From contig NZ_JAIHOM010000005.1 of NCBI RefSeq assembly GCF_026130165.1, positions 1 through 64,000 on the forward strand: a stretch of 64,000 bases of DNA, written 5' to 3'. The translations under genes were made by a program, and so were the position numbers. Positions within the stretch are counted from its first letter, which is position 1; each line of letters opens with the position of its first letter. The stretch is from Spirulina subsalsa FACHB-351. Its GTDB lineage: Bacteria > Cyanobacteriota > Cyanobacteriia > Cyanobacteriales > Spirulinaceae. Shown in pieces: positions 13,833 to 43,628 of the stretch. Under the pieces are notes generated by a model that was not told the origin of the DNA, made no database searches, and worked only from the letters and a program-made list of their open reading frames with translations.

Positions 13833-16535
13833 TTAGAGGATGTCAACGGATACGGCTTGATCGAGTAATTGCAAGATGCCTGACTCATCAAACTCGGCGC
13901 TGAGGGTGAGAAGGCGATCGCAAAATCCCCGATAGTCTTTGTTCTCTGCTCCCAGTTGTCTCGCTGCTTCTTCCAGTCCGCCAATATCCCCAATTCTTAA
14001 AGTTTGGTAGAAAACTTGCAATTTCTGAGCTGGGGGAAAGACAAGAGGCTGTTCTTTGGTGAGGGGTTGCGCTTCTTGCTCATACATCCATTGTAACTTG
14101 AGATGTTGTTGAATATAACTTAGTAATTTTTCTAAGTCGAGTGGCTTTTCTAAAAAACTGTTACATCCTGCCTTAAAGGCTAGACTTTGATCGGATAACG
14201 ATACACTAGCACTGGCGGCAATAATTGGCACAGTGCAAGAGTAAGACTGACGCAAATTTCTAACAAATTCATAACCATTCATCTCAGGCATTGCAATGTC
14301 TGTAATGATTAAATCCGCTTGCCATTTCGCCAAAACAGCCAATCCTTCGACTCCATTGGTTGCCTCTTGAATCTCAAACCCCAAGGGGTTTAAAATCTCG
14401 TTAATCACTCTTCTATTGACTACTTTATCATCGACAATTAAGATTTTTTTTCGCTCTCCTGTATAGCTAATGATCCTTCCTTTTTGGCATTGAGTGACCC
14501 TATTAACCCATTTCTGAGAAACTGGTACATCAAGGGTAAACCAGAACTGACTCCCCGTGCCTAGCGTACTTTTAACTTGTAATTCACTCCCCATCATTGC
14601 CACAATTTGACGGCAAATGGTTAAGCCTAAACCTGTCCCCTCGGAGCGTTTTGCTGTACTCCCCACTTGTTCAAAGGGAAGAAAAATCTGGGTCAGTTGT
14701 TCGGGACTCATTCCGACTCCAGTATCTTCAATGGTGAAGCGCAGAGTAGCCGTTGCATCTGGCGAAAAATCAGGATGATTGGCAAGATTTTTTACCCTCT
14801 CCACTTTAAAAATAACTTGACCAATATCAGTAAATTTGATGGCATTTCCCAGTAAATTAAGTAAGACTTGACGCAACCGTTTTTCATCAGCGTGGATTGC
14901 ACTAGGTAGGTGTTCATTAAAGCTCGAATAAAGGGTAATTCCTTGGTGTTCAGCGCGAATTTTAGCGATTTCTGCTACACCAATGAGGAAAGCAGGTAAA
15001 TGAAAATCTGTGGGGTAGAGTTCCATTTTTCGTGCTTCTATTTTGGCCAGATCCAAAATATCATTAATCAGATTGAGTAAATGAGTACCCGCTTGAGCAA
15101 TGACTTCTACCCCTTGACGATGGTGGTTTAAATCTTTAGCGCGATGGAGAATTTGCGCATAACCTAAAATGCCATTGAGGGGGGTGCGTAATTCGTGGCT
15201 CATGTTGGCCAGAAATTCACTTTTAGCTTGATTCGCTGCGTCGGCAATTTCTTTGGCTTCTGCAAGTTCTGATGTGCGTTCTGCAACTTTTTGCTCTAGA
15301 TTTGTAAAGGCTGTATTGAGTTGGTTTGCCATGTGGTTAAAGACTTGAGCAAGGGTTTGAAATTCGGCGATCGCACCCCCCGAAACCTCCTGCTGTAAAT
15401 TGCCTTCCGATATCGCTTCTGAGGACTCAATTAAGCGTAAAATCGGCTGGCTAATCCAACGGGAGGTATAAATCCCCAAAAGGCTAGCCATGCCTAAAGC
15501 CGCCAGACAGAGTAAAATCGTGGTGCGCGTATTGGCGTGAATTTGTGCCATAAAATCCTGCTCTGGCACTACAAGGACAATCAGCCAATCTAGCCCCCCT
15601 TCGTCTTGATAGGGGAGAATATGGAGCAATAGGCGATCGCCTTCGATCTCAATATCCAATTGATCCGTCGCGGTAATCTGGTTAAAATCTCCGAATTTTT
15701 CCTGTAAAGATTGCGCGGTTTTTTGGATTAACAAATCATCGCTTTCTACCCCCAGTAAACGCTCATTTTTTCCCTCTTTATCTCGAAATAACAGTTCCTC
15801 CGTTGAAGTCGCTACTAAAAAGCCAGAACGCTCTATAATGAAAGCTTCTCCCGTCTTGCCAATTTCTAAACTTTCTAAAAAATCCCCAATCTGAGTGAGG
15901 ATTAAATCTGCTCCAATAATACCTAATAACTGTCCTTGAGCATCATAAACAGGACGACTGGCTGTAATGGCTAATTCTTGACTGACTAAATAAGGATAAA
16001 TTTCTGTCCAAATGGGTTTCCCCGCACTGACTCCAGTTTGATACCATTCACGCTGTCGGGGATCGTAACTGGGACCAGGATTTAATAATTCTACCCGTTC
16101 TCCCCCTTCATTCAATAACCAAGTATTAAGAAAATAGTTATTTCTCTCATCGGAGACTTCTAGAATTAGAGACTTATCGTCTCGACGTGCCACCCCTACA
16201 TAGTTTCGTTCTTCTGTTCCCAAGGAAATATAACTCACCGTTTTAAACTGCCGCATTTGGGCAAAAAAGTATGGTTCTAAACGGGGAATATCATTAATAT
16301 CTAATAACCCTAAACGGATAGCATCAGCATTAATTTCATTAACTAATAGGGGAATCTCTAAATAAGTGTGAACTCTCTCTTCAATGCGTTTAGCTAACTC
16401 GGTGTGTAACTGACTTGCCAAATCACTCACTGCTTTTTGTCCATTGCGGAAAGATAACCACCCAGTTAAGCCTACTATTGTAAATATTTGCAACAGAAAT
16501 GGTAGGATTAAGACCAAGCGCAGATGTAGTTTCAT
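13833..16535 (-). CDS. Cache-domain hybrid histidine kinase
   Basis: 900 residues from ATG 16535. A membrane helix (about 7-28) leads to an extracytoplasmic double-Cache sensor domain (about 35-335, with DPRQREWYQ), then a second helix (about 340-358), a HAMP linker and a coiled coil. HisKA carries the phospho-acceptor His447 in [12 protein letters not shown]; the HATPase has N, G1 (DTGVG) and G2 (GTGLGL) boxes; the receiver domain has Asp746. A helical tail follows (about 820-900). An upstream TTG (16583) would put the start inside a 16-bp tandem repeat and is less likely. It probably senses a small ligand and passes phosphate through its own receiver. The divergent neighbours are also kinases. 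Confidence 0.93.
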
Positions 16536-16553
16536 TACCGTAGTCCCAAGGAA

Positions 16554-16676
16554 GAAGTTTGAGTCAACAGAAGTTTGAGTCAACAGAAGTTTGAGTCAAC
16601 AGAAGTTTGAGTCAACAGAAGTTTGAGTCAACAGAAGTTTGAGTCAACAGAAGTTTGAGTCAACAGAAGTTTGAGC
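16554..16676. repeat. Seven perfect 16-bp tandem repeats
   Basis: The unit GAGTCAACAGAAGTTT occurs seven times without a mismatch from 16561 to 16672, preceded by a partial unit (GAAGTTT, 16554-16560) and followed by GAG. Each unit contains TTGAGTCAA, which is palindromic around its centre base. The array begins 19 bp upstream of the chosen start of the Cache kinase and lies between it and the divergent kinase at 17088. It could be a cluster of operator sites or a fast-evolving minisatellite. Confidence 0.95.
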
Positions 16677-17087
16677 TAATTCTGTTATCTCCTAGAGGTT
16701 TGATTTGAGCAGATTCTGACCTTCTTTAACCTACTCAGTTTGTGATTCTCGGAGGGGATTATTGGGCAATTTGGACTGATCGAATAAGTCTTAACCGTAT
16801 CTTTACAATAACTTAAAACTGAGAGTGTATTTTAGACCTATAATAGCACTATTAGGAAAAGATTCACCCCCTAAATATTTCTTAAGACTTTTTGTATATT
16901 TAGATACTTTATTTTTTGCCCTTTGGGTATTTAGCCCGAATCAAAAGCTCTAACCTTAAATCTCTAACTGGCTGTTGAACCAACTTCAATTAACGTTTAT
17001 TTTGGGTCTAAAATCAACCGAAAAAATACGGAATTGCAGACCAAATAATAATCGACTATTGATTTGTAACTTGCTAAGAGGTCAATC
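16677..17087. promoter_or_regulatory. Rest of the divergent kinase intergenic region
   Basis: About 410 bp of AT-rich DNA between the 16-bp repeat array and the response-regulator kinase gene. It must hold the promoter of the rightward two-kinase unit and probably that of the leftward kinase. I see no gene, no strong terminator and no clear regulator consensus. An AGAGG Shine-Dalgarno-like sequence lies just before ATG 17088. Confidence 0.5.
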
Positions 17088-18440
17088 ATGTTTGAAGGAG
17101 TAGAATCGAGTACCATTTTAGTGGTTGAAGATAACCCAACAAATATTAAGGTTGTGTTTAATTTACTGAGAGATGTCGGGTTACGGGTTTTAATTGCTAA
17201 AGATGGGGAAAGCGCGCTGAAGAAACTGGAAGATGTATTACCAGATTTAATTTTATTAGATGTGATGATGCCGGGGATTAGTGGCTTTGAAACTTGTCAT
17301 TTGATTAAAGAAAATCCTTCTACACAAGCCATCCCAGTTATTTTTATGACAGCCTTAGCTGATACAGAGAATAAAATCAAAGGCTTTGAATTGGGGGCGG
17401 TAGATTATATCACCAAACCGTTTCAGCAGAATGAAGTGTTAGCGCGGGTTAATCTTCATCTCAAACTGTGTAAACTGACTCAAGAATTGGCAGAAAAAAA
17501 TCGAGAATTGCTGAATCTTAACTTGTGCTTAGAGGAAAAAGTAGAAGAGAAAACATCTGAGATTAAATCGATGCAATCTCAGTTAGTTTTACAAGAAAAA
17601 ATGTCATCTTTGGGACAGTTAATTGCTGGAATTGCCCATGAAATAAAGAATCCAATTGGTTTTATTGAGAGCAACCTTAAGCCTGCCTATGATTACGCTG
17701 AAAATCTAATTGATCTGGTGAAGTTATATCAGACCTATTATCCTCAACCTGTGTCAGAAATTCGAGAAAGATTAGTGAATACTGAGTTTGACTATGTGGC
17801 GGAAGATTTTCCCCAGCTTTTGCGGTCTTTGGAAGAAGGCACAAAACGACTGACTTATATTAGTCAAGCTATGCGGACGTTTTGCCGCTCAGATCAGAGT
17901 CTGCCGGAGGTTTTTGACGTGCATCAAGGTCTAGATAGTACGCTTTTAATTCTTAAACATCGTCTACAAAGAAATGAACAACGACCGGCCATTCAGGTGA
18001 TTAAAGATTATGATCAATTACCTCTGATTACCTGTTTTCCCGGTCAGTTGAATCAGGTGTTTATGAATGTATTAGCCAATGCCATTGATGCTTTAGATGA
18101 AGCCTACCAGCAAGGGGAAATTTTTCAAGGAGATAATCAGGGCAACTGTATTATTATTCAAACCCGTTATGCTGAGGCAGATCAGCAAGTTTGGATCACG
18201 ATTCAAGATAATGGGGTGGGGATTCCTCTGGCTATTCAAAAGCAGATTTTTGATTATCTATTCACGACGAAAAAAGTCGGGAAGGGGACGGGGCTAGGGT
18301 TAAGCATTACTCGTGAGGTTATGGAACATCATCAAGGGAAAATTGAGGTAGAATCTATTCCTAATCAGGGAACAACTTTCCGATTAAAGTTGCCAGTTGA
18401 GGTTTCTTTTGCCCCGGACAATTCCATTACAGCGAGTTGA
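17088..18440 (+). CDS. Response regulator-histidine kinase fusion
   Basis: 450 residues. An N-terminal receiver (about 9-125, Asp58 in LLLDVMMP) is joined by a coiled coil (about 130-170) to HisKA with His184 (GIAHEIKNPIGF) and a HATPase domain with complete N, G1 and G2 boxes (GKGTGLGLSI). There is no sensor domain or membrane segment, so it is a cytoplasmic relay kinase likely controlled by phosphorylation of its receiver. Its HisKA type matches the membrane kinase at 60027. It begins a rightward unit with the 18452 gene only 11 bp downstream. Confidence 0.92.
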   Translation: MFEGVESSTILVVEDNPTNIKVVFNLLRDVGLRVLIAKDGESALKKLEDVLPDLILLDVMMPGISGFETCHLIKENPSTQAIPVIFMTALADTENKIKGFELGAVDYITKPFQQNEVLARVNLHLKLCKLTQELAEKNRELLNLNLCLEEKVEEKTSEIKSMQSQLVLQEKMSSLGQLIAGIAHEIKNPIGFIESNLKPAYDYAENLIDLVKLYQTYYPQPVSEIRERLVNTEFDYVAEDFPQLLRSLEEGTKRLTYISQAMRTFCRSDQSLPEVFDVHQGLDSTLLILKHRLQRNEQRPAIQVIKDYDQLPLITCFPGQLNQVFMNVLANAIDALDEAYQQGEIFQGDNQGNCIIIQTRYAEADQQVWITIQDNGVGIPLAIQKQIFDYLFTTKKVGKGTGLGLSITREVMEHHQGKIEVESIPNQGTTFRLKLPVEVSFAPDNSITAS

Positions 18441-18451
18441 GGTTTAGGTGA

Positions 18452-20278
18452 ATGAGTGACGGAATCAAAGAGCAGTCTATGAGTCAAGAATTGCAAATTT
18501 CTGAAGCGAAATATCGTCTTTTATATGAAGGATTGCAGGATGCTGTCCTGTTGTATGATCAAAAGATTATTAGCTGTAATCGGGCTACTTTGGCGATGTT
18601 TGGCTATGAGTTGGAGTCGGAATTGTTGGGTAAGTTACCGTCAGATTTATCGCCACCGACACAGCCAGATGGCCGAGATTCTCAAGTGGCTGCTTTGGCG
18701 GCGGTAGAAAAGGCGATCGCACAGGGAGAATATCGCTTTGAGTGGCAACACCGACGATGCAATGGGGAGGAGTTTTGGGCGGAGGTGTGGTTAGCGACGT
18801 TGGCATTGGGGGAAAAACAAGTGATTCAGGCGGTGGTGCGGGATATTAGCGATCGCAAACAACGAGAAGCGGCACTACAGGCAGCCAAAGAAGCGGCTGA
18901 GGTAGCGAATCAAGCGAAAAGCGAATTTCTGGCGAATATGAGTCATGAGTTACGCACTCCCCTCAATGGGATTCTTGGCTATACCCAAATTCTACAACGT
19001 ACCGATAATCTAAATATTCATCGCGAGGGGTTAAGTGTTATTCATCAGTGTGCAACTCATTTATTGACTCTGATTGAAGATGTGTTAGATTTTGCCAAAA
19101 TTGAGGCCAATAAACTAGAAATTATCCCCACTAATTTTCATCTGCCGTCCTTTTTACTCAGTGTGGTGGAAATGTCCCGCATTCGCGCTGAGGGGAAAGA
19201 TATTCAATTTTGTTATGAGATTCCCCTAGATTTGCCGCCGGGGGTGCAAGGGGATGAAAAACGTCTGCGACAGGTGTTAATTAATTTATTAACTAATGCG
19301 ATTAAGTTTACAGAGCAAGGGACGGTTTTATTTAAGGTGATAATTTTAGAACAAACTGGGGAACAAATCACTCTCCGGTTTCTGGTCAAAGATACGGGAA
19401 TTGGCATTCCCAAGAGTCACTTAGAACAAATTTTTCTCCCCTTTGAACAAGCTGGATTCCCTCACCATCATACAGAAGGGACGGGTTTAGGGTTAGCGAT
19501 TAGTCAACATATTGCGGAGACAATGGGGAGTAGAATTGAGGTCATTAGTGAAGTCGGAAAAGGGAGTAAGTTTTGGTTTGATTTAACCTTTCCCGTTGTT
19601 CAAGAATGGGCTAAACTGTCGGTTGTTCAACAAGGTCAACTGATTACGGGTTATATTGGTGCAACACGCAAAGTTTTGATTGTGGATGATAAGGAAGTTA
19701 ACCGCGCTGTTTTGCTGGATATCCTGCACCCTCTGGGGTTTGAATGTCAAGTGGCAGAGGATGGGAGGGAGGGGTTGGCGATCGCACAAACATTCAAGCC
19801 TGATGTGATTTTAACCGATTTAGTCATGCCGAATCTAGATGGCTTTGAAATGACCCGTCGTTTAAGAGAACAAGAGGCCTTTCAAGATACCATTATTTTA
19901 GCCCTCAGTGCCAGTGTTTTAAATAATGATCACGCCAAAAGTTTAGCGGTGGGTTGTAATGGTTTTATCCCTAAACCGATTGATCTGCAAAAGCTTTTAC
20001 ATGACCTCCATCAACTGTTACAAATCGAGTGGATTTGTGAAACACCTGAGATTAGTCTAACTCCTTCTGCTGTGGAATTGCCTCTCATTTTTCCCCCTTC
20101 TCCGGTGATAGATCGCCTGCACCAAGCGGCTAAAATTGGGGATATTTCTGCCATTGAGATGGAAGCGACACAACTAAAAAGTTTAGATGAAAAATATGAG
20201 CCTTTTTGTGCAAAACTCTTAAAACTCACTCAAGATTTTGATGACCAAGGAATTTTAACCTTTTTGGAGGCTTGTTAA
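18452..20278 (+). CDS. PAS-domain hybrid histidine kinase
   Basis: 608 residues. A PAS domain plus PAC segment (about 15-140) is followed by HisKA with His165 ([12 protein letters not shown]), HATPase (N box LLTNAIKF, G2 GTGLGLAI), a receiver with Asp456 and a helical C-terminal tail (about 540-608). It is soluble. The kinase core, receiver and tail are closely related to those of the divergent Cache hybrid kinase at 13833, so the pair looks like a duplication with exchanged sensor domains. It lies 11 bp after the response-regulator kinase, so the two are very probably co-transcribed and may form one phosphorelay. Confidence 0.93.
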   Translation: MSDGIKEQSMSQELQISEAKYRLLYEGLQDAVLLYDQKIISCNRATLAMFGYELESELLGKLPSDLSPPTQPDGRDSQVAALAAVEKAIAQGEYRFEWQHRRCNGEEFWAEVWLATLALGEKQVIQAVVRDISDRKQREAALQAAKEAAEVANQAKSEFLANMSHELRTPLNGILGYTQILQRTDNLNIHREGLSVIHQCATHLLTLIEDVLDFAKIEANKLEIIPTNFHLPSFLLSVVEMSRIRAEGKDIQFCYEIPLDLPPGVQGDEKRLRQVLINLLTNAIKFTEQGTVLFKVIILEQTGEQITLRFLVKDTGIGIPKSHLEQIFLPFEQAGFPHHHTEGTGLGLAISQHIAETMGSRIEVISEVGKGSKFWFDLTFPVVQEWAKLSVVQQGQLITGYIGATRKVLIVDDKEVNRAVLLDILHPLGFECQVAEDGREGLAIAQTFKPDVILTDLVMPNLDGFEMTRRLREQEAFQDTIILALSASVLNNDHAKSLAVGCNGFIPKPIDLQKLLHDLHQLLQIEWICETPEISLTPSAVELPLIFPPSPVIDRLHQAAKIGDISAIEMEATQLKSLDEKYEPFCAKLLKLTQDFDDQGILTFLEAC

Positions 20279-27153: not shown

Positions 27154-28083
27154 GTGTTTGGCTTCCTAAATCTTAACAAATCGGCTGGCATGACTTCTCA
27201 TGACTGTGTTGCCCGGGTGCGACGATTGCTGAAACTCAAGCGGGTGGGACATGGGGGAACCTTAGACCCTGCCGCAACGGGGGTGTTGCCCATTGCTTTG
27301 GGCAATGCTACTCGTTTGTTGCAATACTTGCCAGAGGGCAAGTCCTATCGGGCGCGCATTCATTTGGGGATGTGTACCAGTACAGATGATTTAGAGGGAG
27401 AAGTGTTGGCGACGACTTCGGCCGAAGGGGTGACACAGGAGGGAGTAGAGGGCTTATTAAGGGAGTTTGTCGGGGAAATTGAACAGGTGCCGCCTGTCTA
27501 TAGTGCCATTAAGCAGGGGGGGAAACCTTTGTATGCGAGGGCGAGGGCGGGGGAAGTGGTAGAAGTGCCGAAGCGAGTGGTGCGGATTGACCGGGTGGCT
27601 TTAGTGAGTTGGCAGGCTGGGGAGTTGGCGGAGTTGGAGGTTGATATTGATTGTGGGGGCGGGACTTATATCCGGTCAATTGCCCGGGATTTGGGGGAAA
27701 AGTTAGGAGTAGGGGGGACACTGGCGCACTTGACGCGGACATTGAGTTGTGGGATGAGCTTGGGGGAGAGTGTGACGTTGGAGGAGTTGGCGGCACAGGT
27801 GGGGGAGGGGTGTTTTATGCCCTTGGGGGTGGATGGGCCTTTAGGTCATTTACCCAAGGTGGTATTACAGGAGGAGGAAGCGCAACGTTGGTGTCAGGGT
27901 CAAGGGGTTTTGTGTCCGTTGGGGAAGTCAGGGCTTTTTCTGCGAGTGTATAATGATCAGGGCTTTCTGGGGATAGGTTTGGGTCAAGGGGAGGGGGAGA
28001 TAATGCAGTTAGTCCCTAAGACAGTCATCAGTAATCAGGTTCGTAGTTGCGCTTGGGCGCCCAATCGGGAGTCAGGTTCGTAG
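27154..28083 (+). CDS. truB: tRNA pseudouridine synthase B
   Basis: 309 residues. It makes pseudouridine 55 in the T-loop of most tRNAs. The catalytic Asp38 is in the motif GGTLDPAATG, and the TruB core motifs SAIKQGGKPLYARAR and GTYIRSIARDLG are present. I choose GTG 27154 (FGFLNLNKSAGMTSHD), the usual TruB start; TTG 27145 adds three residues. No Shine-Dalgarno is visible, because the upstream DNA is the AATTGATA repeat. The last 20 or so codons run into a 37-bp dispersed repeat, so the C-terminal tail and stop codon derive from that repeat. Confidence 0.94.
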   Translation: MFGFLNLNKSAGMTSHDCVARVRRLLKLKRVGHGGTLDPAATGVLPIALGNATRLLQYLPEGKSYRARIHLGMCTSTDDLEGEVLATTSAEGVTQEGVEGLLREFVGEIEQVPPVYSAIKQGGKPLYARARAGEVVEVPKRVVRIDRVALVSWQAGELAELEVDIDCGGGTYIRSIARDLGEKLGVGGTLAHLTRTLSCGMSLGESVTLEELAAQVGEGCFMPLGVDGPLGHLPKVVLQEEEAQRWCQGQGVLCPLGKSGLFLRVYNDQGFLGIGLGQGEGEIMQLVPKTVISNQVRSCAWAPNRESGS

Positions 28084-28142
28084 TTGCGCTTGGGCACCAA
28101 ATCGGGAATCAGGTTCGTAGTTGCGCTTGGGCGCCCAATCAG
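28036..28142. repeat. Three tandem copies of a 37-bp dispersed repeat
   Basis: Copies start at 28036, 28073 and 28110 with exact 37-bp spacing. The core is CAGGTTCGTAGTTGCGCTTG followed by GGCGCCCAATCGGGA with small variation. Copies 1 and 3 contain the perfect palindrome TTGGGCGCCCAA. The first copy overlaps the 3' end of truB. A further copy and a half lie at 63483-63530 with the same 37-bp period. Confidence 0.9.
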
Positions 28143-28160
28143 TAATCAGGAGTCGGAAAT

Positions 28161-40691: not shown

Positions 40692-43628
40692 ATGGACTTG
40701 TTAACCCAGCGTCAGCAGCGTTTAACCACCGCCACAGCCATCCTAGCCGGAGGCGCTGTCTGTGGCGGCATCTTCGGAACCATCGCCACCTCAGTCGCGG
40801 GGGGGATTGTCGCCAATGACATGATACCCCAACACCTTAGCCATATTGGGGTACGGCTGCGGCGTAGTGGGGAAAAATTGGCCAATCATGACCTAACGGC
40901 TGCCACAGGTTTCGCCATTGCCTTAATCATCAAAGCCATTGCTGAGGCCGGCACCTATCCCCAGTCAATAGGGAAGCTTACAGCCCTTGCTAAAAATACC
41001 CTGAAAGCATGGGAAGAGGTCGCCCAAGCCCTGAAACAGGGTGAAGAGGTCAAATTTGACCTAATCCAAGAAACAGGGATTTCTGAGTTATTTCAGCAGG
41101 GGACGGCGGGCTATGTGAACCAGAAAGTTTTGCAGGTGGAAGATTGGCGGGAATTAATGCAAGATTGGCTTTGTCCAAAAGCCGGAGTAACATTCCCAGA
41201 GTATGTTTTAGAGGAAGTGGCGACGCAGTTACGGGATAAGTTTGCTTTGGCGTTGCGGGAGGTGTTGAAAGCGGATTTTGAGGCGGGGGGGAAGGCGTTT
41301 GCGGGGTTAACGTTGTCGCTGTTGGGGGAAATGCGGGAGGTTTTGGCGGAGTTGCGGCAAAGCAGTCCTGAAGCGGTTTCTGGGGAGTTGGCAGAAGCTC
41401 TAGAGGCTGTGGTTCAATTGCGGCGGGAGTTGGAGGGGAATAGCGAACGGTTTCGGGAGTTAGGCCAGCAGGTTGATTCGGGGTTTGCGGCTGTTCTCGA
41501 TGAGTTGGGGGTGACTCAGGCGCAAATTGCGGGGGTGCGGGATTGGTTAGAGGGGGAGTTAGAGAGTTTACAGGAAGCAGTAATAGCAGGGTTTGACCGG
41601 GTTAACGAAGACAATCAACGGTTACAGGAGACGGTAGAGGGTGTTAAGGAGGATACTCAAGCCATTCTTCGCTTTTTGAAGGCGCAACAACAGCCGAAGG
41701 TGCAGGCAATTTCTTACTTTTTGGATATAACCCCCCCAAACGTGACCCATTGGCAGGGGAGGGAGCAGGATTTAGCGATAGTGAATGGGTGGTTGGATGA
41801 TGAGAATACGAAGTTAGGGGTGATTGTTGCCATTGGGGGGATGGGAAAATCGACGCTGGCGGCGAAGGTGTTTGGGGAGCGGACGGATTTTGTGGATAAG
41901 CTGTGGCTGGATTTAGGGCAGCGTCCCAGTTATACGATTGTGGCGCGGGGGATTTTGCAGCATTTAGGGAAGCTTTCGCCGCAGGATTTAGAACAAATTG
42001 AGGAGACGCGGTTAACGCGGGTGGTGATTCATTGTTTGGCGCAACAGCGGTTTTTGTTGGTGTTGGATAATTTTGAGTCTGTGATTCAGGATGAGGGCTA
42101 TGTGGAGTTTTTGCAGCAGTGGGTGGGGGAATGTCGCCATACGGAAATTTTGGTGACGACGCAGGAGGTTCCCCGTTTACAGCAGGTGAGGCCGACGGAG
42201 TGGCCGTTGGGGGGTCTTTCTCTTCAGGAGGGGAAAAATCTGTTGGTGGCGTTGGGGATGGGGGGAAGTGAGGCGAGTTTAGAGGGGTTTGTGGCACAGG
42301 TTAATGGTCATCCGTTGACGTTGGCGTTGGTGGCGGGGTTATTGCGGGATGAAGTGGGGGAAGGGGGGACGATTGAGGATTTGGAGGGATTAGGATTAGC
42401 GGACGTTGGCTCGTTGTTGGGGAGTTTGCAGGGGTATCACCGTCGGGAAACGGTGCAGTTGGTGGCGGTGTTGGATGCGAGTTTTAATCGTTTGTCGGAG
42501 GGGTTGCAGGGGGTGTTGTTGTCGTTGGTGGTGTTGCGTCGGGGGTTTGATGCAGAGGTGGCGAGTGCCATTGTGGGGGAGGTGGTGACGGGGAAGGTGT
42601 TGCGGGATTTGATGAAGCGGGGGTTTTTGGTGGAGGAGCAGCGGGGATTTTTTACGTTTCAGCCGTTTATTGGGGAGTATTTGAAGTTTAAGGTGGGGGA
42701 TTTAAGGGAGGCGCATTTAAGGGCGATCGCGTTTTATCGGGGTCGGTTTAAGTCCGGTGGGGAATGGGAAACGGTTGAGGATGTGCGGGAATATTTGGAG
42801 GTGTTTTATCATCGTTGTGAGTTGGGAGAGTATGAAGCGGCGTTTGATGGAATTTATGATGGTAGGAATATTGATCGAGATGTTGATAAGTTTCTTGATT
42901 TACGCGGTAATAATCAACTCCGGGTTGAACTCTATCAGCAATTAGTCAATCATCTCCCGGATCACCACGACTGGCGATACACTGCATCGTTAACCTCCTT
43001 AGGCAATGCCTACAATGCCCTAGGACGCTACCAGGAGGCGATCGCCTTTCTCCAGCAATCTCTGGACATTGCACGAGAGATTGGCAACAGAGGGGGGGAA
43101 GCTAATTCTTTGGGCAATTTAGGCAATGCCTACAATTCCCTAGGACGCTACCAGGAGGCGATCGCCTTTCTCCAGCAATCTCTGGAGATTAAACGAGAGA
43201 TTGGAGACAGACAGGGGGAAGCTAATTCTTTGGGCAATTTAGGCAATGCCTACAATGCCCTCGGACGCTACGAGGAGGCGATCGCCTTTCTCCAGCAATC
43301 TCTGGAGATTAAACGAGAGATTGAGGACAGACGGGGGGAAGCTACTTCTTTGTTAGTATTGGGTAACTTGTACCAAAAAACAGGCAAAATCAAAGAAGGA
43401 TTTGCCGCTTCTCAACAAGCACAAGCCATTTTACAAGAATTAGATTTACCCCTTGCCGCTTACCCAATTCCTAATTGGGCGAAAGCAGTTGCTAAATTTG
43501 CCCAACGTAGTAACTTTCATTTAATTGCGTGTTTTATTGGCGGCATTTTTGCCTTTCCCTTCTTCCTCCTTTGGATTATCTTGCTAATGCTCTACCGGAT
43601 AATCCGCAACCTCTTCCCCCACCCCTAA
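40692..43628 (+). CDS. STAND NTPase (NB-ARC) with TPR repeats and membrane segments
   Basis: 978 residues. A glycine-rich hydrophobic stretch (about 16-44, AILAGGAVCGGIFGTIATS) opens an otherwise unrecognised N-domain (about 45-230), then coiled coil (about 230-345). The NB-ARC NTPase has Walker A GGMGKST at about 382-388, Walker B FLLVLDNFE at about 453-461 and a winged-helix region. Three nearly identical 40-residue TPRs follow (about 770-890), then a C-terminal membrane helix (about 935-970) and a basic end. STAND proteins are switch ATPases that detect a trigger through their repeats and fire the N-domain; many are phage-defence receptors. The trigger and effector activity here are unknown. 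The G-rich NTPase part and the C-richer TPR part differ in composition. Confidence 0.85.
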   Translation: MDLLTQRQQRLTTATAILAGGAVCGGIFGTIATSVAGGIVANDMIPQHLSHIGVRLRRSGEKLANHDLTAATGFAIALIIKAIAEAGTYPQSIGKLTALAKNTLKAWEEVAQALKQGEEVKFDLIQETGISELFQQGTAGYVNQKVLQVEDWRELMQDWLCPKAGVTFPEYVLEEVATQLRDKFALALREVLKADFEAGGKAFAGLTLSLLGEMREVLAELRQSSPEAVSGELAEALEAVVQLRRELEGNSERFRELGQQVDSGFAAVLDELGVTQAQIAGVRDWLEGELESLQEAVIAGFDRVNEDNQRLQETVEGVKEDTQAILRFLKAQQQPKVQAISYFLDITPPNVTHWQGREQDLAIVNGWLDDENTKLGVIVAIGGMGKSTLAAKVFGERTDFVDKLWLDLGQRPSYTIVARGILQHLGKLSPQDLEQIEETRLTRVVIHCLAQQRFLLVLDNFESVIQDEGYVEFLQQWVGECRHTEILVTTQEVPRLQQVRPTEWPLGGLSLQEGKNLLVALGMGGSEASLEGFVAQVNGHPLTLALVAGLLRDEVGEGGTIEDLEGLGLADVGSLLGSLQGYHRRETVQLVAVLDASFNRLSEGLQGVLLSLVVLRRGFDAEVASAIVGEVVTGKVLRDLMKRGFLVEEQRGFFTFQPFIGEYLKFKVGDLREAHLRAIAFYRGRFKSGGEWETVEDVREYLEVFYHRCELGEYEAAFDGIYDGRNIDRDVDKFLDLRGNNQLRVELYQQLVNHLPDHHDWRYTASLTSLGNAYNALGRYQEAIAFLQQSLDIAREIGNRGGEANSLGNLGNAYNSLGRYQEAIAFLQQSLEIKREIGDRQGEANSLGNLGNAYNALGRYEEAIAFLQQSLEIKREIEDRRGEATSLLVLGNLYQKTGKIKEGFAASQQAQAILQELDLPLAAYPIPNWAKAVAKFAQRSNFHLIACFIGGIFAFPFFLLWIILLMLYRIIRNLFPHP
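43001..43360. repeat. Three 120-bp in-frame repeats encoding TPRs
   Basis: Copies start at 43001, 43121 and 43241 and are nearly identical over 120 bp, each with GCGATCGC. They encode 40-residue TPR units (GNAYNALGRYQEAIAFLQQS). The very low divergence indicates recent duplication or gene conversion, as is usual in repeat receptors with variable copy number. Confidence 0.92.

Follow-up and report, generated by a model that had tools for sequence, protein, structure and literature searches.

The window analysed here is a stretch of 64,000 nt from the draft genome of Spirulina subsalsa FACHB-351 (5.26 Mb in 279 contigs); judged by protein, the nearest relatives are cyanobacteria, including Roseofilum, Spirulinaceae and Oscillatoriales. 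Three signalling genes, assigned from their Pfam domains, lie around the locus of interest. A dCache-HAMP-HisKA-HATPase-REC hybrid histidine kinase of 900 aa (the Cache kinase) is encoded at 13833-16535 on the minus strand, with a conserved ATG at 16535. On the plus strand are its divergent neighbour, a REC-HisKA-HATPase signalling protein (17088-18440) that is 91% identical to its orthologue in the sister species G001, and a PAS-HisKA-HATPase-REC hybrid kinase (18452-20278). G001, which is in two contigs, is the single same-genus genome compared.

Between the divergent genes, TRF and a unit-by-unit printout place seven perfect head-to-tail copies of AGAAGTTTGAGTCAAC at 16553-16664, followed at 16665-16680 by an eighth, degenerate copy, AGAAGTTTGAGCTAAT (13/16 identity to the unit), with which the array ends. 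TRF itself reports 16553-16675, with a period of 16, 7.7 copies, 100% match and no indels; at 123 bp in a 279-contig draft, the exact copy number could be wrong by at least one unit. Such an array is far from what chance would give: it scores 246 in TRF, whereas 20 mononucleotide shuffles of the whole window reached 58 at most. The observation is thus confirmed as real. Each unit contains TTGAGTCAA, a 9-bp palindrome about its central base. The array begins 18 bp upstream of the Cache kinase ATG, its other end is about 400 bp from the start of the 17088 gene, and the intervening intergenic DNA is unique. The preliminary description, made from the letters of the window, had reported seven perfect 16-bp repeats, the palindrome, the divergent kinase flanks and the absence of a CRISPR; all of these were borne out, save that its coordinates were one base off and the eighth copy had been missed. 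A CRISPR array is ruled out by the lack of unique spacers between the repeats.

The same description had pointed to an in-frame TTG within the array. The codon is there, at 16581-16583 on the minus strand; the conserved start, however, is the ATG at 16535. The latter is the likely start of the Cache kinase because, for most near-full-length homologues in other genomes, the alignment starts at query residues 2-5, and because the ATG, along with most of the bases that separate it from the array, is conserved in the sister species. The TTG, an unlikely start codon, has no counterpart there and is private to the window, on which grounds a start within the array was rejected. In the sister species the Cache kinase orthologue is split by an element of about 1.2 kb with a DDE transposase (L037:8189-9364), and the matches on either side of it share 11 bp, which is what a target duplication would leave. 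Since that copy is split, strong constraint on expression of the Cache kinase in the genus is doubtful, and the kinase itself does not seem strongly constrained there.

Apart from the transposase insertion, gene order in the sister species is the same as in the window, and at the site of the array it carries two imperfect units, AGAAGTTTAAGTTAAC and AGAAGTTAAAGCTAAT. Comparison of copy number with a relative, which had been proposed as a check, thus gave eight units in the window against two: the focal site measures 128 and 32 bp, respectively, a difference of 96 bp or exactly 6 x 16 bp. The last copy of the window is identical to the second unit of the sister species at 14/16 bases, including a GCTAAT end that is absent from the other copies, and the contrast between the two units of the sister species is also that between the last two copies of the window. 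Two substitutions, G9A and C13T, separate the first unit of the sister species from the window unit; they fall on mirrored positions of the palindrome, so that the dyad is preserved (TTGAgTCAA to TTAAgTTAA). Of the 120 possible pairs of positions, 4 would be symmetric in this manner (~3%), and the symmetry was noticed post hoc. The counterparts of the dyad are TTAAGTTAA and TAAAGCTAA, of which the former, in the first unit, is the only intact one. The only further large gap of the intergenic alignment corresponds to the sister species' own 14-bp array (L037:10090-10180; 6.5 copies of CCTGACTCTAAATC), which lies in the same intergenic region and of which the window has about one unit.

Beyond the genus, the intergenic region had no detectable match in 11 further members of the family, nor was any found in the plasmid collection. 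Similar arrays upstream of the homologues of either gene were absent from 15 upstream stretches, bar an unrelated 7/14-bp array in L012 and L041, apparently one locus under two identifiers.

Tandem arrays are frequent in this genome. In a 355-kb sample, from which the genome-wide density was estimated, TRF found 76 separate ones (21 per 100 kb), and 17 were found in 89 kb of the sister species. Several arrays of the sample are likewise perfect and comparable in length (24 bp x 6.1, 19 bp x 5.8 and 8 bp x 9.9), and this genome also has heptamer arrays in common occurrence. A high density of short tandem repeats is a known trait of cyanobacterial genomes (PMC4692102, PMC4679880, PMC2408588). For three control arrays the flanks could be located in the sister species. 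The first, of 24-bp units, measures 147 bp against 27 bp there (five units fewer in the sister species), the second, of 15-bp units, 46 against 31 bp (one unit fewer), and the third, of 19-bp units, 111 against 169 bp (three units more, within 1 bp). Whole-unit change of copy number was therefore observed in every array that is comparable between the two genomes. As to the AGAAGTTTGAGTCAAC unit, it is not dispersed, with only four single matches outside the array genome-wide (at most two mismatches), and a dispersed repeat family was rejected, the unit being private to one locus. Occurrence of the same array at other genomic sites, which the preliminary description had named as an argument against a regulatory role, was accordingly not found.

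Two more arrays lie within the window. The one at 28033-28150 has 3.2 copies of a 37-bp unit, 37 bp being also the unit length of cyanobacterial LTRR sequences; the one at 42999-43352 (120 bp x 3.0) resembles repeats in the coding sequence of a TPR protein (LGNAYNALGRYQEAIAFLQQSLEIKREIGDRRGEANS). Elsewhere, L166:9980-10126 and L177:1480-1577 hold similar 24-bp tandem units, GATTCTCGTTCCGAGACGCTTCGC and ATTCTCATTCTGAGAGGCTTGGCG. With single copies spread through the sister genome, these 24-bp units are a dispersed repeat family.

We conclude that the array is very probably a lineage-specific, recently expanded minisatellite, probably without a specific job. The history would start from two imperfect units, an old duplication upstream of the Cache kinase that persists in the sister species; in the lineage of the window the first unit would then have been amplified from one to seven copies, probably via replication slippage or unequal exchange. 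Such an expansion is the simplest history because the last copy of the window matches the second unit of the sister species at all but two bases. Contraction from a long array in the sister species is less simple, because its two units differ like the last two of the window. With the site known in two genomes only, it is the degeneracy of the second unit from which we infer the direction of change. That the seven copies are perfectly identical would be the mark of recent expansion and not of selection on each copy. At most, the 5' leader or promoter spacing of the kinase would have gained 96 bp, with an effect that is probably mild, and no specific role for the array was found in our analyses. 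What speaks against a near-neutral reading is the position of the array, so close to the start codon that length changes could matter. A variable-number minisatellite was one of the two explanations offered by the preliminary description: the six-unit difference between congeners upholds it as to the kind of element, but not as to a tuning of spacing or of start choice; the TTG is absent from the sister species, while the ATG is conserved.

The alternative that survives best, although we consider it unlikely, is that the length of the variable array sets promoter spacing or leader length and, through them, expression of the kinase. The 18-bp distance to the ATG and the unlike copy number of the two species fit such tuning, and copy number may affect kinase expression through leader length. 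There is also a precedent: in Moraxella, according to literature quoted in PMC4679880, phase variation is driven by repeats that separate a promoter from the start codon. However, similar variable arrays are scattered across the sampled genome, the kinase of the sister species is split, which casts doubt on its expression being strongly constrained in the genus, and the region yielded no promoter-like match. Although 16 is not divisible by 3, the reading frame is unaffected by copy number because the array is upstream of the ATG. Two other candidates were rejected: a sigma-70 promoter provided by the repeated TTGACT of the minus strand (no consensus match in the region; shuffle mean 2.0), and a stable RNA structure in the leader, whose fold is unremarkable (z of -1.6 for the kinase strand and -0.2 for the other strand).

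It is improbable that the array is a multi-operator, the other explanation of the preliminary description, in which a regulator of the cluster would bind each TTGAGTCAA and control both divergent transcripts. The dyad is perfect in all seven copies and is kept as TTAAGTTAA in the first unit of the sister species; its sequence, however, is not conserved at that orthologous site, where a single intact dyad stands. The motif shows no clear enrichment or clustering elsewhere in the genome, be it as single sites or as phased pairs. A search of the whole genome gave 95 sites, 88 of them outside the array versus 75 for the reversed-pattern control, a slight excess which we do not treat as enrichment; it gave no other 16-bp-phased TTGAGTCAA pair, and relaxed TTRAGTYAA-N5-9-TTRAGTYAA pairs in the sister species were not above control (1 versus 1). 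A spacing of 16 bp places adjacent sites on opposite faces of the DNA. Furthermore, Pfam shows no DNA-binding domain in any of the three proteins, and the array touches one gene while being about 400 bp from the other. The multi-operator claim is thus not supported; we rate it no lower mainly because the symmetric substitutions preserve the dyad, a weak hint that the dyad might be used. In its most elaborate form, which we hold to be very improbable, the dyad would be a true regulator site under compensated change (TTGAgTCAA / TTAAgTTAA), amplified sevenfold so as to titrate, or to bind cooperatively, a regulator of the phosphorelay cluster. Finally, an assembly artefact or a wrong copy number, which the 279 contigs of the draft and an array about as long as one short read might bring to mind, has a negligible probability, given flanks that are unique and colinear with the sister species and similar arrays in the latter's two-contig genome.

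Outside the array, the intergenic region contains a Pho-box-like triple 8-mer on the plus strand at 16790-16819, CTTAACCG tat CTTTACAA taa CTTAAAAC (8+3+8+3+8). With a matrix built from published cyanobacterial sites (Table 1 of PMC1906773), this CTTAACCGtatCTTTACAAtaaCTTAAAAC is the top-scoring site of the region; among 500 dinucleotide shuffles of the intergenic region without the array, 8 attained its score. The site is identical at 28 of 30 positions in the sister species, whose own best site was reached by 2 of 500 shuffles. A score of 16 is middling (training sites range from 8.7 to 25.8), and five positions in 354 kb score at least as high. A TATAAT that is conserved in the sister species (16839-16844, plus strand) is, on sequence alone, a candidate -10 element towards 17088. 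The Pho-box-like site suggests phosphate control of the 17088-20278 genes and, together with the TATAAT (16790-16844), may be a more important lead than the array. The two-unit form of the repeat in the sister species (L037:9802-9831, minus strand) also scores 16.0 as a Pho-box-like site. A Pho box formed by the expanded array of the window was rejected, since it is absent from the best four matches of the window.

As a minisatellite, the array is an ordinary object, another example of a familiar class. The locus is nonetheless a clean worked case, in which a unit expansion beside a start codon can be seen in its earlier and later states (2 and 8 units) in two congeners, and it could be used as a strain-typing marker. 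It also calls for caution: even where repeats are perfect, have a palindromic core and lie near regulatory genes, they are not necessarily operators.

Among known systems, the cyanobacterial STRR and LTRR sequences are likewise tandem repeats and mostly intergenic. They differ from the window array, whose 16-bp unit is private to one locus and does not occur in tandem at many places of the genome; the conserved LTRR repeats, in contrast, recur across the genome (PMC2408588). The TAACTGA heptamer arrays (PMC4679880) are, like the present one, direct repeats just upstream of a start codon, in cyanobacteria among others; their unit is another one and they are found at many genes of a single genome, whereas the window array stands at a single gene. 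The closest likeness is to the minisatellite (VNTR) loci of bacteria, from which we found no difference: there as here, near-identical units in the range of about 7-100 bp follow one another head to tail in intergenic DNA, perfect and free of spacers, and relatives differ by whole units, here eight against two.
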